From: Verrucomicrobiia bacterium
Lineage (GTDB): Bacteria > Verrucomicrobiota > Verrucomicrobiia > Limisphaerales > JAOAIM01
DNA length: 58,930 bases
Direction: 5' to 3'
Assembly: GCA_026414705.1 (NCBI GenBank)
Contig: JAOAIM010000002.1
Coordinates: 16,817-75,746 of the forward strand
Shown here one piece after another: positions 2,680-49,048 of this stretch. Position numbers and translations under genes: made by a program. The notes below the pieces were generated by a model, which was given only the letters and a program-made list of their open reading frames with translations, was not told the DNA's origin and made no database searches. The first letter of the stretch is position 1; each line of letters opens with the position of its first letter.

Positions 2680-3483
2680 TTAAGGAATGGGCGGCACGGT
2701 TTGGCGCAACCGTTCCAGGTCACGGTCGGTGGCCGGGGTGGTCGAGAACTGGGCGGCGTTGACGACGTAAGGGTCACGCCAGCGCCAGTATTCGGCGTGG
2801 CCGTCGGCGAATGAGAGCACGCAACCGCGGTCATGTCGGCTGGCGGGCACATTCCACCAGCGATAAACGCCGGAGTTGCGCCATTCGATGCCGATGGCGT
2901 TGTTGTCAATGCTGTCCTCTTTTTCGTCGAGGAACACGGAGGCCTGACTGGGCGCTGGGTCCACGATGCCACTGGTTCGGGTTGGGCCGATGGGGTTGCC
3001 GGGGGTGCCCTCGTCGAGCCAGTTGATGCCGGTGCTCATGGAATAACTGCGCCAGCGCAGGATGGTCGTGCCGTCCACAAACGAGCGGTCGGCGGGGCAG
3101 CGGTAGATGGCAACCGACTTGTTGTAGTCGAACAACGGCCCGTAAACGATGGCCCAATTGGTCGTGTCGGTGCGGGCGTGGCCGGTCCAACTGCCGACGC
3201 CCAGGACGGTGCCCGCGCGAATCCAGGCGCGGCTGCCGCAGGCGGCGTTGCCGCGGGTGTAGTTGTTGACCAGCAGCTCGTTGTTGTCGCCGGCATACAT
3301 CGCCCAGCAAAGCGTCAGTTGCTTGAGATTGCTCAGGCAGTTGGTGCGCGTGGCGCGCTCCTTGGCCTTGGAAAGCGCCGGCAGGAGCATCGCCGCCAAA
3401 ATGGCAATGATCGCGATCACAACCAGCAGCTCAATGAGCGTGAAGGCGACCGCGCGCGTGCGTGATTTCGAGACCCGGTTCAC
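2680..3483 (-). CDS. Prepilin-type N-terminal cleavage protein, H-x9-DG family
   Basis: 267-residue pseudopilin-like protein. A short basic leader ([10 protein letters not shown]) precedes [25 protein letters not shown], the type IV prepilin/type II pseudopilin signal recognised by a prepilin peptidase; the residue before Phe is Ala rather than the classical Gly. The globular part carries the verrucomicrobial/planctomycete features CPADRS and a C-terminal [10 protein letters not shown] (H-x9-DG type). Expected location is the inner membrane or periplasm, possibly in a pseudopilus-like export machine, but such proteins occur in very large families whose function is mostly unknown. It sits between two DUF4623-like exported proteins, so it may take part in their export or display; that is inference from position only. 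Confidence 0.9.
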
Positions 3484-42712: not shown

Positions 42713-43214
42713 ACAATTCCTCGGTACCGTACTTCAGGAACAGTTCCCGGAGGTCGTCGCGGTTGACATCCAGCCGATGCACCTGAACCAAACGTATCAC
42801 ATCATCGGCATCTTTCACAATGCGGCCTCGATGGCCGTAACGGATAGCGTGGCATTTGAGGGCCAACAGATGAAGCAGCGAAACGATTTTTACGCCGCTC
42901 ACTTCGGGCTGTCCCGGAATCGCATCGGCCGCGAGTTTGGCGAAGGTCTCGTCGTTGACCAGCATAAGGTCGAGAGGCAGCATGTCGTTGCTCGGCGGAT
43001 CGAATTGCAAAAAGGTCGGCCCCTCACTGCGGAAGCGAAACCCCATCTCAGCGGCCATTTCCACCCAGGCCGCTCGCTCGCTGCGCCGAATCACCAAATC
43101 AATGTCGAAGGTGGCCCTCGGATGGCCGTGGGCGATAACAGCGTGCCCACCGGCCAAAAGAAATGGAAGGTTGCGTTCGGCAGCACGAGCGGCAATGGCA
43201 GCCAAGGTGTTCAC
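42678..43214 (-). CDS. MNT/AbiEii-type nucleotidyltransferase
   Basis: 178 residues. The nucleotidyltransferase core is plain: [27 protein letters not shown] has the G-G-x-A box and the D-x-D metal ligands; [12 protein letters not shown] supplies the third acidic residue (LDLML). A helical bundle follows ([32 protein letters not shown]). Related proteins act as toxins or in abortive infection by nucleotidylating tRNA or proteins; others are solitary and harmless. It starts inside the last codons of pyrG (4-base ATGA overlap) and overlaps a small gene at its own end. Confidence 0.8.
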
Positions 43215-44884
43215 GATGACTGTTTGCGTCCCCGCTCCAGCGCCGCCGCAATGAACCCGCGGAAAAGCGGGTGCGCCTGATGCGGTTTGCTCAGAAATTC
43301 GGGATGAAACTGGCAGGCCAGGAAAAACGGATGCTCGGCCAGCTCGATCAACTCCACCAACTGCCCGTCGGGCGAAAGTCCGCTGAAGACCACCCCCGCC
43401 CGCTCAAACGCCGCGCGGTAGGCGTTGTTGAACTCGTAGCGGTGGCGATGCCGCTCGTTGGCCATGAACGAGCCGTAAAGTTGCGCCGCGCGCGTGCCGA
43501 GCTTCAACTGGCAGGGTTGCGCGCCCAGGCGCATCGTCCCGCCCTTGCGCGTGATTTTTTTCTGCTCGTCCAGCAACACGATCACCGGATGCGGCGTGTC
43601 CGGGGCAAACTCCGTCGAATGCGCGCCCTCCAGCCCGAGCACGTGACGGGCAAACTCGATCGAGGCGACCTGCATGCCCAGGCACAGGCCCAGGTAGGGC
43701 ACTTTGTGTTCGCGGGCGAACTGCGCCGCGCGAATTTTGCCCTCCACGCCGCGCTCGCCAAACCCGCCGGGCACCAGCACGCCGTCCAGCCCATGCAGGT
43801 GTTTGTCCGCGCCGTCGCGCTCAATCTGCTCGGCGTCCACGCGCACGATCTCCACCCCGCAATCGTTGGCCACGCCCCCGTGCAACAGCGCCTCATACAC
43901 CGATTTGTAGGCGTCCTGCAGCCCGATGTATTTGCCCACCACGCCGATGCGCACGTGATGCCGCGGGGCGATGATTTTGCGCAGCATTTCCTGCCAGTGG
44001 CGCATGTCCGCCGGCGGCAGATCCAGCCGCAACAGCCCGCAAATCAGATCATCGGCCCGCTCGCGCTGAAGCATCAGCGGCACTTCGTAAATCGTGTGCT
44101 CCACGTCCTGCTCCTCGATCACCGCCTCCACCGGCACGTTGCAGAAGAGGGAAATTTTCTGGCGCACCTCGCGGTTGATCGCCCGCTCGCATCGGCACAC
44201 GATCAGGTGCGGGGTGATGCCGATTTCCCGCAGTTTGGCGACCGATTGCTGGGTGGGTTTGGTCTTGAGTTCGCCGGCGGCCTTGATGAAGGGCACGAAG
44301 GTGACGTGAACGAACGCGACGTTGCCCGGCCCGGCTTCGAGCGCAAACTCGCGGATCGCCTCCAGAAACGGCAACCCCTCGATGTCGCCGGTCGTGCCAC
44401 CAACCTCCGTGATGAGCACATCCGCGCCGGACTGTTCGGCCAGCGTGCGGATGCGGTTTTTGATCTCATCGGTGACGTGCGGGATGACCTGAACGGTTTT
44501 GCCGAGGTATTTGCCCTGGCGCTCGTTGTTGAGCACGGTCTGATACACCTGGCCGCTGGTGAGATTGTTCAGCCGTGTGAGCTTGCAACTGGTGAAGCGT
44601 TCGTAGTGGCCCAGGTCCAGATCGGTCTCCGCTCCGTCGTCGAGCACATACACCTCGCCGTGTTGGAACGGCGACATCGTGCCGGGGTCCACGTTCAGGT
44701 AGGGATCGAACTTTTGAAGCGTGACCTTGAGCCCGCGGTTCTCCAGCAGCGTGCCCAGCGAGGCGGCGGTCAATCCCTTGCCCAGGGAACTGATCACGCC
44801 GCCGGTGACAAAGATGAATTTCACCTCCGAAAAGTCCGTTTTCGCGGGCTGCGCTGGCGCACGGGAGCGGAGGCAACCGGCCAA
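43211..44884 (-). CDS. pyrG: CTP synthase
   Basis: Glutamine- and ATP-dependent conversion of UTP to CTP. 557 residues from ATG 44884; the conserved sequence begins at [21 protein letters not shown], so GTG 44824 (537 residues) is the likely true start. Synthetase domain: [32 protein letters not shown]; glutaminase domain: [22 protein letters not shown] with the nucleophile Cys, and the C-terminal ACQFHPEF histidine/glutamate. Located 52 bases behind the kdsB fusion gene, whose enzyme consumes CTP. Its stop overlaps the start of the nucleotidyltransferase gene by 4 bases. Confidence 0.97.
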
Positions 44885-44936: not shown

Positions 44937-46031
44937 TCACGCCGGTTTCTGATTCATCGCGCGTTCCACCCGCGCCACGTCCTCCGGCACGTCCACGCCC
45001 ACGCTCTCGTGTTCGACCGTCACGACCGCGATGGGAATTTCGTGTTCCAGCGCCCGCAACTGCTCCAGCCGCTCGGCCCGTTCCAACGGCGTCACCGGCA
45101 ACTGCACCAGCCGCAACAGCGTCTCGCGCCGGTAACCGTAAATGCCCAAATGCTTCAAAAACGCAAACGCCGCCAACCGTTCGGCCTCCGAACCACTGGC
45201 GGCGTCCCGCAAATACGGAATCGTGCGCCGTGAAAAATATAGGGCGCGCCCGCGACGGCTGACAACGACTTTGACAACGTTGGGATTGTCGAGCTCGTCC
45301 GGGCGGCGCAGCGGCGTTGCTGCCGTGGACATTTCGTGGTGCGTCAACGCGCCCGCCACCGCGTCAATCACCGACGGCTCGATCAGCGGCTCATCCCCTT
45401 GAATGTTCACCACCGCGTCGCATTCGCACCGCGCCGCCACCTCCGCCACGCGATCCGTGCCGCTAGGATGATCCGCCCGCGTCATCTCCACGCGCGCAAA
45501 ACGCGACGCGACCTCGGCAATCCGCGCATCGTCGGTGGCCACGACGACCTCGCTCAGCGCGCGCGCGGCGCGAGCGCGCTCGACGACGTGTTGCACGAGC
45601 GGTTTGCCCGCGATGAGCGCCAGCGGTTTGCCCGGAAAGCGCGTCGAACCGTAGCGCGCCGGAATGATGCCGAGGATGCGATCGGGCGGACGCCAAGGCT
45701 GTTGAAACCATGCGCTCAGCCGCTCGCGCAACCGCAGCAATCGCGCTTCACTGATCCGGCCGGCGTAACCGCGAACGTCCGTTGGCGGAATGGTTCCGAG
45801 AAAACCCAAACGAATCAGCGATGCCTGCTCCAGGCCGCTTTCAGCGAAATCCGGATCGCCCGGACGGATGATTTCATCCAAACCCGGCACCAGCCTGTCC
45901 AGTCGAGTGCTGATGCCGCAGGCCAGAAGATCGCCAAAGGGCTGCCAGACCTGGAGAATCAGAACCGGGCGGCGTTTGACCTGTCCGTCCGCCTGCCGAA
46001 GCGGGGCGATAACTATTTGGCCGGCCTTCAT
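44937..46031 (-). CDS. kdsB: MazF-type toxin domain fused to KDO cytidylyltransferase
   Basis: 364 residues in one frame. Residues 1-112 form a complete MazF/PemK domain ([21 protein letters not shown] with the conserved Arg-Pro, LLACGISTR, the [17 protein letters not shown] strand and a last helix [17 protein letters not shown]). Residues 119-364 are a full-length Kds[76 protein letters not shown] and [12 protein letters not shown]. KdsB activates KDO with CTP for LPS core synthesis. No ATG or GTG lies at the junction; TTG codons at residues 98 and 101 could allow internal initiation. The first codons overlap the antitoxin stop by 4 bases. No other kdsB was seen in the window. Confidence 0.9.
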
Positions 46032-46252
46032 TCCGGCGGAATTCTCCCGACGTGCTTCGGGAAGTCGGGTTCGTCCTCATCGCACGCCCGTGCGAGCGAT
46101 TGGCGGCCCAGCTCATACAACTCCTCCAGTTCCCGCTCCTGGCCCGGCTGCGCCACGACCACCCACACCGGCGTGTTGGGCGGCAAATCCACCGGCTCGT
46201 CCAGGCACACGTGCTTGCCGTCGTAATGACCTCTGACCGTGACCACGCTCAT
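46028..46252 (-). CDS. DUF104/AF2212-like antitoxin
   Basis: 74 residues from ATG 46252. SVVTVRGHYDGKHVCLDEPVDLPPNTPVWVVVAQ matches the short beta-strand domain of DUF104 (AF2212-like) antitoxins: a T-V-x-x-H/A-x-Y/F-D-G-K-x-x-x-L-D-E-P start and a PNT box. The C-terminal half is acidic and helical (ERELEELYELGRQSLARA, CDEDEPDFPKHVG), as expected for toxin binding. The stop overlaps the start of the MazF-KdsB fusion by 4 bases. It lies 44 bases behind glmS on the same strand. Confidence 0.82.
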   Translation of the reverse strand: MSVVTVRGHYDGKHVCLDEPVDLPPNTPVWVVVAQPGQERELEELYELGRQSLARACDEDEPDFPKHVGRIPPE

Positions 46253-46296: not shown

Positions 46297-48156
46297 TCAC
46301 TCCACCGTCACGCTCTTGGCCAGATTCCGCGGCTTGTCCACGTCGCACCCCCGCAACACTGCCACGTGATACGCAAACAGTTGCAGCGGCACGACCGTCA
46401 GCAGCGGATAAAACCAGTCCACCGTGCGCGGAATGTAAATCACCTCGTCCGCCTGCCGCGCCACCTCGCGGTCGCCCGCCGTCGCCACGGCAATGATCGG
46501 CCCCTTGCGCGCCTTGATCTCTTCCATGTTGCTGACGTTCTTCTCATACATCGCGTCGCGCGGCACGATGAAGATGCTCGGAAAATCCGGCGCAATCATC
46601 GCAATCGGCCCGTGCTTCATCTCCGCCGACGGATAGCCCTCGGCATGAATGTAGGACAATTCCTTGAGCTTGAGCGCGCCCTCCAGCGCCACCGGATAAT
46701 TGCACTGCCGCCCCAGGTAGAGAAAATCCTGATAGTGCTGATACTGCTTCGCGAGCCGCAGAATCGCCGCGTCGCCGTCAATGATCCGCTGAATCTTCGG
46801 CGGCAGGGTTTGCAACTCGCGCACCAGCTGGCGGCCCTCGGACAACGCCAGCCGCCCTCGCAACCGCCCCAGCGCAATCCCCAGCAGCGTCAGCAACAAC
46901 ACCTGCATCTCGAAGGCCTTCGTGGAGGCGACGCCAATCTCCGGCCCGGCACGCATGTAAATCGCCGCGTCCGACTCGCGCGCGATTGTTGAACCGGCCA
47001 CGTTGACGATCGCCAGCGTGCGAATGCCCTGCGCCCGCGCGCCCCGCACCGCCGCCAGCGTGTCCGCCGTTTCGCCCGACTGCGAAATCGAGACCACCAG
47101 CGTGCCGCGCTCCAGCGGGCGATTGCGATAACGCATCTCGCTGGCGCACTCGACCTCCACCGGCACGCCGGCGAGGTTTTCAATCAGGTATTCGCCCACC
47201 AGCGCCGCGTGCCAGCTCGTGCCGCATGCCACCAGCACCAGTCGCTGAATTCGCTCCAGTTCGCGCCGGCTCAGCGCCATTTCCTCAAACTCCACCGTGC
47301 CCCGCGCGGGCCGGAGCGTGCGCGCCAGTTCATCCGCCACGCGCTGCGGCTGCTCGTGAATCTCCTTGAGCATGTAATGCGGAAACCGTCCGCGCTCGGC
47401 CTCCGCCGCCGACCAATCCACGGTACTGACCGGACGGCGAACCGGTTTGCCCCCGGCGAAAAGTTCCGCGCCCGCGCGCGTCAGCCGCACCAAATCCCCG
47501 TCGTGCAGGTAAATGACCTTGCGCGTGTGCGCGATGATGGGCGAGACGTCGCTCGCCAGGAATTGCTCGCCCTCGCCCAGGCCGACCACGAGCGGCGAGC
47601 CGCGTCGCGCGCCAAACAGATGTTCGGGCAGGTCCGCGTGGATGACCGCAATCGCATACGTGCCCTCGGCCTCCTGAGTCGCGCGGTGGATCGCCTGCGT
47701 GAGCGCCTCCGGCGTCGCGCGGCCGGAACGTCCGAGGATTTTTTCGAGGTGATGACCGATCAGATGCGCGAGCACCTCGGTGTCGGTTTGCGAGCGGAAT
47801 CGGTGACCGCGCGCCGTCAGTCGCCGCCGCAATTCGGCGTAGTTTTCGATGATGCCGTTGTGCACCATGGCGAGCCGGCCGCTCTGGTCCAGGTGCGGAT
47901 GCGCGTTGGCGTCACTGGGCGGGCCGTGCGTGGCCCAGCGCGTGTGGCTGATGCCCAGGGTGCCGTCCACCGGTTGAGCGCGCAGTCGCTCGGCCAGCGC
48001 GGCGACGCGCCCGACGCACTTGCACAGGTGCAGGCCGTTGCCGTCGAGCGTGCACAAGCCCGCCGAGTCGTAGCCGCGATATTCCAGCCGGCGCAGGCCG
48101 TCCAGAAGGATTGGCATCGCCGGTTTGCCCCCGATGTATCCCACTATGCCGCACAT
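46297..48156 (-). CDS. glmS: Glutamine-fructose-6-phosphate aminotransferase (isomerizing)
   Basis: Makes glucosamine-6-phosphate for peptidoglycan and lipid A. 619 residues, normal length. The N-terminal nucleophile Cys2 (MCGIVGYIGG), RRLEYRGYDSAG, HTRWATHGPPSDANAHPH and NGIIENYAELR define the glutaminase domain; two SIS domains follow (ACGTSWHAALVGEYLIE, SQSGETADTLAAV, IGVASTKAFEMQV, YLGRQCNYPVALEGALKLKELSYIHAEGYPSAEMKHGP) and the end is PRNLAKSVTVE. No glmS ribozyme core was recognised upstream; instead the leader contains octamer repeats (48169-48232). Confidence 0.97.
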   Translation of the reverse strand: MCGIVGYIGGKPAMPILLDGLRRLEYRGYDSAGLCTLDGNGLHLCKCVGRVAALAERLRAQPVDGTLGISHTRWATHGPPSDANAHPHLDQSGRLAMVHNGIIENYAELRRRLTARGHRFRSQTDTEVLAHLIGHHLEKILGRSGRATPEALTQAIHRATQEAEGTYAIAVIHADLPEHLFGARRGSPLVVGLGEGEQFLASDVSPIIAHTRKVIYLHDGDLVRLTRAGAELFAGGKPVRRPVSTVDWSAAEAERGRFPHYMLKEIHEQPQRVADELARTLRPARGTVEFEEMALSRRELERIQRLVLVACGTSWHAALVGEYLIENLAGVPVEVECASEMRYRNRPLERGTLVVSISQSGETADTLAAVRGARAQGIRTLAIVNVAGSTIARESDAAIYMRAGPEIGVASTKAFEMQVLLLTLLGIALGRLRGRLALSEGRQLVRELQTLPPKIQRIIDGDAAILRLAKQYQHYQDFLYLGRQCNYPVALEGALKLKELSYIHAEGYPSAEMKHGPIAMIAPDFPSIFIVPRDAMYEKNVSNMEEIKARKGPIIAVATAGDREVARQADEVIYIPRTVDWFYPLLTVVPLQLFAYHVAVLRGCDVDKPRNLAKSVTVE

Positions 48157-48168
48157 GGTTTGTGTGTT

Positions 48169-48350
48169 CGTTAAAAGGTTGAGCCGTTAAACCGTTAAAT
48201 CGTCAAAGCGTTCGTGCGTTGAAGCGCCGAAGCCTTGGCGGCCGGGAAACATTGCCCCCCGGCCCACCACACATCGAACCAAAACCCCTCAACAAATCCC
48301 CCACTTAACCAATCCCCATTTAACCAACCCCCATCCAACCCATCACCGCT
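48169..48350. repeat. Short tandem repeats upstream of glmS
   Basis: First block (48169-48232): octamers of the form GTTAAACC (GTTAAAAGG, GTTAAACC, GTTAAATC, GTCAAAGC, GTTGAAGC). Second block (about 48277-48345): 15-16-base units like TTAACCAATCCCCAT. They are imperfect, fill the glmS-gmhB gap and have no recognised function. Confidence 0.6.
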
Positions 48351-48894
48351 TCGGCGCATTCAAAATCCATTCCGCCGCCGCTGCAAGGTCGTCCACCACC
48401 ACCGCTTGGTCGGCCCGCCCCGCCAACAGCCGCTCGTGCTCGGCCCCGTAGCCGGTGCGCACCAGGATCGCCCGCTCGACGCCCGCGTTCCAGCCGCACT
48501 CCAGGTCAATGAGCTTGTCCCCGATCATGAAACTGCGGCTCAGGTCCACGCCGAACTCGTCGCGGGCGTCGAACAGAAACTGCGGCGAGGGTTTGCGCCC
48601 GCGACTGGGCTGGTCGGGCGCTTCGGGCGCCACGTAGATTTTTTGAAACCGGACGCCGTGCCGCGCGCACTCGGCGGTGATGTGCGCGTGCACCTTCTCC
48701 ACGTCGGCCAGCGTGAAATAGCCGCGTCCGACGCCGGACTGGTTGGTCACGATGAAGAGCAGAAACCCCGCGTCCTGCAACCGCTTGAGCGCGCGCATGG
48801 CGCCGGGGATGAACGCCACGTCCTCAACGCGATGAAGGTAGTTGCGCTCCTCGATGAGCACGCCGTCACGATCCAGAAAAACGGCCCGATGCAT
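48343..48894 (-). CDS. gmhB: D-glycero-manno-heptose bisphosphate phosphatase-like HAD hydrolase
   Basis: 183 residues from ATG 48894 (ATG 48912 also possible). HAD motifs: [16 protein letters not shown] (catalytic DxD), [15 protein letters not shown] (Thr-Asn-Gln-Ser), [11 protein letters not shown] (Lys) and [13 protein letters not shown] (GDxxxD). This order and length fit GmhB/HisB-N phosphatases, acting in ADP-heptose synthesis for the LPS core. The zinc loop normally present (C-x-H...C-x-C) is missing: the segment reads [15 protein letters not shown] with no cysteine. Substrate is therefore assigned by family and by its LPS-related neighbours glmS and kdsB. Confidence 0.88.
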
Positions 48895-49048
48895 GGCCTT
48901 TGCTGGCCGCATCTTGCGTGGGCGCACCCCGGCGCGAAACAAAAAACATCCGACCTGCGCCAAAGCCGCCGAACGGGCGGGTCTGGCGGCCAGGGCGGCG
49001 CGACGCGCGTTTGCCAAGCCCGCCGGTTTGGCCTATTCCATCAGGCGC

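Follow-up and report, generated by a model that had tools for sequence, protein, structure and literature searches.

Whether chromosomal toxin-antitoxin modules are selfish addiction elements or useful regulators has been disputed for a long time, and a case in which the toxin of such a module has become physically part of an enzyme for making KDO, an outer-membrane sugar whose synthesis requires KdsB (an enzyme normally needed for LPS), bears on this dispute. Toxins lying inside a larger polypeptide, i.e., elongated or multidomain toxins as well as toxin-antitoxin fusions, are described in passages of PMC4826407 and, for the RelE/ParE superfamily, of PMC11980606, while passages of PMC2701414 deal with MazF accompanied by XF1863, a partner family predicted to be RHH-like. 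In the window analyzed here (the whole stretch of DNA, 58,930 nucleotides long), the part that seems to be of a known kind is the type II toxin-antitoxin arrangement, and the part that seems to be new is the fusion of the toxin to KdsB. No description of a MazF-KdsB fusion was found in the open-access literature, the papers containing both names mentioning them, judging by title and abstract, in passing.

The fused gene and its surroundings

The features of the window on which the following is built are all encoded on the minus strand:

44937..46031, minus strand: mazF::kdsB fusion gene, 364 aa (ATG at 46031, stop ending at 44937), with six full-length relatives
45696..46031, minus strand: MazF/PemK toxin domain, residues 1-112 (Pfam PF02452 and a separate AlphaFold model)
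45678..45695, minus strand: linker, residues 113-118, of equal length in 7/7 fusions
45681-45683, minus strand: codon GAT of residue 117, the site of the ATG/GTG start in unfused KdsB
44940..45677, minus strand: KdsB (CMP-KDO synthetase) domain, residues 119-364 (KdsB models and Foldseek matches)
46028..46252, minus strand: antitoxin gene, 74 aa, with a homologue showing an equal 4-base overlap in 7/7 fused loci
43211..44884, minus strand: pyrG (CTP synthase), the next gene downstream and a conserved kdsB neighbor
46297..48156, minus strand: glmS, the next gene upstream of the antitoxin in the window
48343..49017, minus strand: gmhB-like phosphatase (named by eye from the sequence), a frequent upstream neighbor of kdsB in the order

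The initial annotation had described a single unbroken 364-codon frame joining MazF/PemK to KdsB, and both the reading of the frame and the profile matches bear this out: PemK_toxin (Pfam PF02452; cut-off 23.1 bits) matches residues 2-108 with 27.2 bits for the whole protein and with 30.1 bits when the MazF domain is searched alone, and residues 118-362 match the KdsB models NF003952 and TIGR00466 far over their cut-offs (232 bits for the latter, whose cut-off is 155.2). As sequence-only PDB searches with the MazF domain returned either nothing or chance-level matches, a structure-based route was taken for it, and the half modeled alone with AlphaFold (pLDDT 95) found MazF-family toxins in all 50 of the 50 PDB matches listed (E 2e-6 to 7e-5; TM 0.72-0.78 by query length). 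The model of the whole fusion, built from 70 aligned sequences (pLDDT 92.4, pTM 0.80), contains a KdsB half that Foldseek matches to the E. coli CMP-KDO synthetases 3k8d and 1gqc (TM up to 0.92 by target length), and the predicted folds of both halves are thus confirmed as intact MazF and KdsB.

The fusion is genuine and conserved, well past anything that chance would produce. When it was sought in relatives, as the initial annotation had proposed, six more genomes turned out to carry the full-length, stop-free frame, bringing the count to 7/320 genomes of the order, spread over five families (G000, which is the genome of the window, G024, G046, G101, G102, G111, and G141); the six relatives are 65-69% identical to the window's protein over the whole length, with 0 gaps in 364 columns, linker included. 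The genomes examined were mostly draft MAGs of uncultured Verrucomicrobiota, and the fusion was not found in a sample of 384 genomes of the class or in one of 388 genomes of the phylum, both of which are samples rather than censuses. Draft metagenome assemblies do invite the suspicion that an assembly or sequencing error has joined two genes, but the same frame and linker length recur in seven separate assemblies at the identities given above, by which an artefact of this kind, including the frameshift error once named as a possible refutation, is excluded for practical purposes.

The junction of the window's fusion contains neither ATG nor GTG, the nearest candidate starts being the TTG codons at residues 98 and 101, exactly as had been claimed, and a scan of the window sequence found no promoter or terminator signal there, its single promoter-like match sitting inside kdsB. 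Most unfused kdsB genes of the order have an ATG/GTG start at the position equivalent to fusion residue 117, followed by the KdsB core, with a minority starting up to about a dozen codons further upstream; in 7/7 fusions this position is Arg or Asp and the start codon is absent. The preceding codon is ATT or GTT in five of the seven, a single base away from a start codon; this is a hint, though no proof, that a kdsB start was lost. Separate synthesis of KdsB from an internal start, with the toxin half being an upstream gene that happens to share its frame, is very improbable: G111 has a GTG two codons past the junction, behind a GGAGG stretch, and G102 has an ATG two codons before it, but the window, G024, G046, and G141 offer only TTG, 8-19 codons upstream, and none of the seven fusions has a stop codon between the halves.

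The antitoxin gene had been placed directly upstream with a 4-base overlap, which was confirmed both for the window, where its stop overlaps the toxin-KdsB start (ATGA) and the two genes are co-directional and adjacent, and for the six relatives, all of which have a homologous gene in the same arrangement. Its description as “DUF104-like”, on the other hand, was not supported, as none of the 13 antitoxin homologues searched matches DUF104 (PF01954) at E up to 1; neither does any Pfam antitoxin family match among these 13, and the NCBIfam RelN antitoxin is weakly matched by three of them (best E 0.0014). In a free module, L103 (2795-3004), the N-terminal half of the antitoxin differs and the C-terminal part is similar (AWLAASQAGFARAYGDDEPDYS), which suggests a swap of the N-terminal domain. 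As for the wider neighborhood, kdsB adjoins pyrG at the loci with readable flanks, often with a gmhB-like gene upstream, and at the fused loci the antitoxin and the toxin sit between the gmhB-like gene and kdsB; the window also has glmS there, and several fused relatives have the gmhB-like gene directly upstream in place of glmS.

Probable addiction by fusion, toxin-less relatives and selection

The most likely explanation (with a probability of roughly 0.6) seems to be addiction by fusion, that is, the capture of a type II module upstream of kdsB and its subsequent fusion to this gene. A mobile module consisting of an antitoxin and a MazF-family endoribonuclease would have settled directly upstream of kdsB, and the loss of the toxin stop and of the kdsB start would have led to KdsB being made as the C-terminal part of MazF-KdsB, with translation beginning at the start codon of mazF; the antitoxin, whose own translation immediately precedes this by way of the 4-base overlap, would bind and silence the toxin half, leaving the KdsB half to work. 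Most nonsense and frameshift mutations disarming the toxin would also destroy KdsB, a loss that would count because KdsB is normally needed for LPS. In-frame deletion would then be the one way left to shed the toxin, and once this had happened, the antitoxin would be free to decay. The RNase activity, its neutralization, the KdsB activity, and addiction as the reason for persistence are all inferred. The presence of the fusion in just 7/320 genomes, together with the existence of congeners of the fused genomes that do not have it, speaks against addiction to the extent that the fusion, if addictive, would have to be often lost or never gained.

Since the fusion is the sole KdsB match in G000, G046, and G111 (as it also is in G101) and kdsA (KDO-8-P synthase) is present in these three genomes (as well as in G141), KdsB should matter in at least these three hosts. 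No kdsA above the TIGR01362 cut-off was found in G024, G101, and G102, though the fusion is present, and KdsB may therefore be non-essential there; a second KdsB-like gene is seen in G024, and G102 and G141 each have a second match to the fusion query.

It had originally been argued that loss of the toxin would necessarily cost the cell its KdsB, and, while addiction by fusion does fit best, the claim was too strong as worded, as three relatives appear to have lost the toxin and kept kdsB, by deletions leaving the frame open. In place of a MazF core, G003 and G082 have just a short frame leading into KdsB, with an antitoxin ORF still ahead of kdsB. In G112, which belongs to the genus of the fused G111, KdsB begins with MKEEDTSLVP, alike in 7/10 residues to the MazF start of G111 (MKERDVILVP), and upstream of it lies an antitoxin-like stretch that is apparently a frameshifted relic; as, among 89 upstream regions, this DNA relic comes only fourth when ranked on best score and third on mean score, G112 is a good but not certain case of a toxin-loss derivative with a decayed antitoxin. 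Separately from these three, unfused kdsB genes starting 4-12 codons upstream of the usual place were seen at L127, L128, L141, L147, and L148, and the leaders of the first two (MKEN and MKEG, respectively) resemble a mazF start, so that they are possibly older toxin excisions. Upstream of kdsB in L066 and L067, congeners of G141, there is a GKQICL stretch as in the antitoxin, out of the kdsB frame, which may be a matter of chance.

In the closest fused pair, G111-G101 (the other pairs being too saturated for firm ratios, and the selection argument being one of few pairs), dN and dS are 0.11 and 0.92 for the MazF domain (dN/dS about 0.12), 0.09 and 0.88 for KdsB, and 0.17 and 0.87 for the antitoxin. 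Judging by these ratios, the toxin domain and the antitoxin are under purifying selection in this pair, and the equal dS of MazF and KdsB suggests that the two halves have travelled together since G111 and G101 split. Between the toxin-less G003 and G082, the dN of the antitoxin (0.45) is about equal to the dS of KdsB (0.44), as would be expected of an antitoxin drifting close to neutrally, and this relaxation of constraint after toxin loss is the strongest indication of a functional toxin half.

These data bear on a further option, in which a toxin domain devoid of catalytic activity would act as a leader of KdsB, as also raised by the initial annotation, or as its dimerization arm. The Cys that G046 has for the conserved Ser at position 41 would fit such a role, but it is improbable given that the fused MazF domains retain the residues invariant in their free relatives, that the dN/dS of MazF is much like that of KdsB, that constraint on the antitoxin is confined to cases with the toxin present, and that the toxin-less KdsB of the relatives needs no leader. 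R21 is found in 7/7 fused copies and S41 in 6/7, both being conserved in nearly all free relatives, and they may correspond to the catalytic Arg and Thr/Ser pair of characterized MazF.

One capture or several

Free antitoxin-mazF pairs related to the fused module were found in Verrucomicrobiota, Acidobacteriota, Chloroflexota, Planctomycetota, Nitrospirota, Geobacteraceae, and a Gracilimonas isolate. In a quick tree with many weak branches, the KdsB domains of the fusions cluster with those of unfused congeners, and the fused MazF domains fall in about three places of their tree. A strict single clade of fused MazF was rejected (AU p 0.0001; p 0.009 in a smaller set), as was, given this and the grouping of fused KdsB with unfused congeners, a single origin followed by plain vertical inheritance of the entire gene; a wider clade that adds the free L103, L071, L072, L168, and L081, chosen after seeing the tree, was acceptable (p 0.139), so that one origin from which free copies later escaped is not rejected. 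In the congeners G101 and G102, KdsB is 87% identical, whereas MazF and the antitoxin are only 45% identical, so that whole modules were exchanged or captured separately. Across the seven fusions, antitoxin distances correlate with those of MazF (r 0.46, p 0.035), while no correlation is seen between MazF and KdsB distances (r 0.05, p 0.40). These patterns would follow from repeated capture at a single site or, alternatively, from one old fusion with later module exchange and escape.

It is also here that regulatory coupling has to be weighed, in which the toxin domain and the antitoxin would have been recruited to control KDO activation and tie LPS synthesis to stress, e.g., by the antitoxin-fusion complex repressing its own operon or tuning KdsB. 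The linkage of the antitoxin and purifying selection on the toxin would be expected from a beneficial regulator just as well; the patchy presence, the apparent loss within a genus (G111/G112), and the different MazF types of the congeners G101/G102, however, better suit a selfish or exchangeable module, and the window has no conspicuous long palindromic operator ahead of the antitoxin, all of which makes such coupling an unlikely explanation.

A possible view of the fusion step is offered by the free L103 (genome G077), where the TGA that ends the mazF copy overlaps a GTG opening 20 bases identical to the start of G077's own kdsB, and where one extra base at this overlap would give exactly the fused register; on either side of the antitoxin-mazF-kdsB-start cassette lies a copy of the final bases of a glmS coding sequence (2677-2722 and 3375-3423), and, with these odd glmS-tail repeats and a contig that ends soon after, the locus is supporting evidence only. 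A tentative extension is that mobile MazF modules repeatedly dock at the 5' end of kdsB: different toxin-antitoxin pairs would have been captured there, joined to the gene in one and the same register, exchanged among congeners, and removed again; if true, a core biosynthetic gene would be a repeatedly used hostage for selfish toxins. At other free loci (L102 3327, L084 3339, L199 1495, and L178 1495), the mazF TGA overlaps the ATG of an unrelated downstream gene (a methyltransferase, a hexapeptide transferase, a DUF2905 gene, and one without a Pfam match among them), and, because four-base overlaps are common in operons, these may be ordinary. In L113, a shortened MazF frame from 3001 stays open for >1,000 codons.

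Relation to described systems

A fused toxin alongside relatives from which the toxin has apparently been excised, with the antitoxin decaying, amounts to a natural experiment on the choice between addiction and regulation, and one that offers predictions: which mutations should be lethal and which tolerated, and what should become of the antitoxin after toxin loss. The cell apparently must keep neutralizing the toxin for as long as KdsB is made, and, on the practical side, genes annotated as kdsB in this order may have a toxin domain upstream that goes unnoticed.

Compared with the multidomain toxins and toxin-antitoxin fusions of PMC4826407 and PMC11980606, the locus differs in its partner, as none in the passages concerned is a core biosynthetic enzyme; with the MazF toxins of PMC2701414 it shares a non-MazE antitoxin partner, the corresponding passages of that survey containing no KdsB fusion. 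Like the MazF/PemK type II modules (MazEF, Kid/Kis), it has the antitoxin first, a 4-base overlap, and a MazF-fold toxin, and the free relatives of the fused module are ordinary two-gene loci in many phyla; unlike in MazEF and Kid/Kis, a biosynthetic enzyme has the toxin as its N-terminal half, and the antitoxin matches no Pfam antitoxin family. Like KdsB elsewhere (TIGR00466), the enzyme half has a full-length catalytic domain in its usual place beside pyrG, but, unlike unfused KdsB, it comes without a start codon of its own and with 116 codons of toxin and linker ahead of it.
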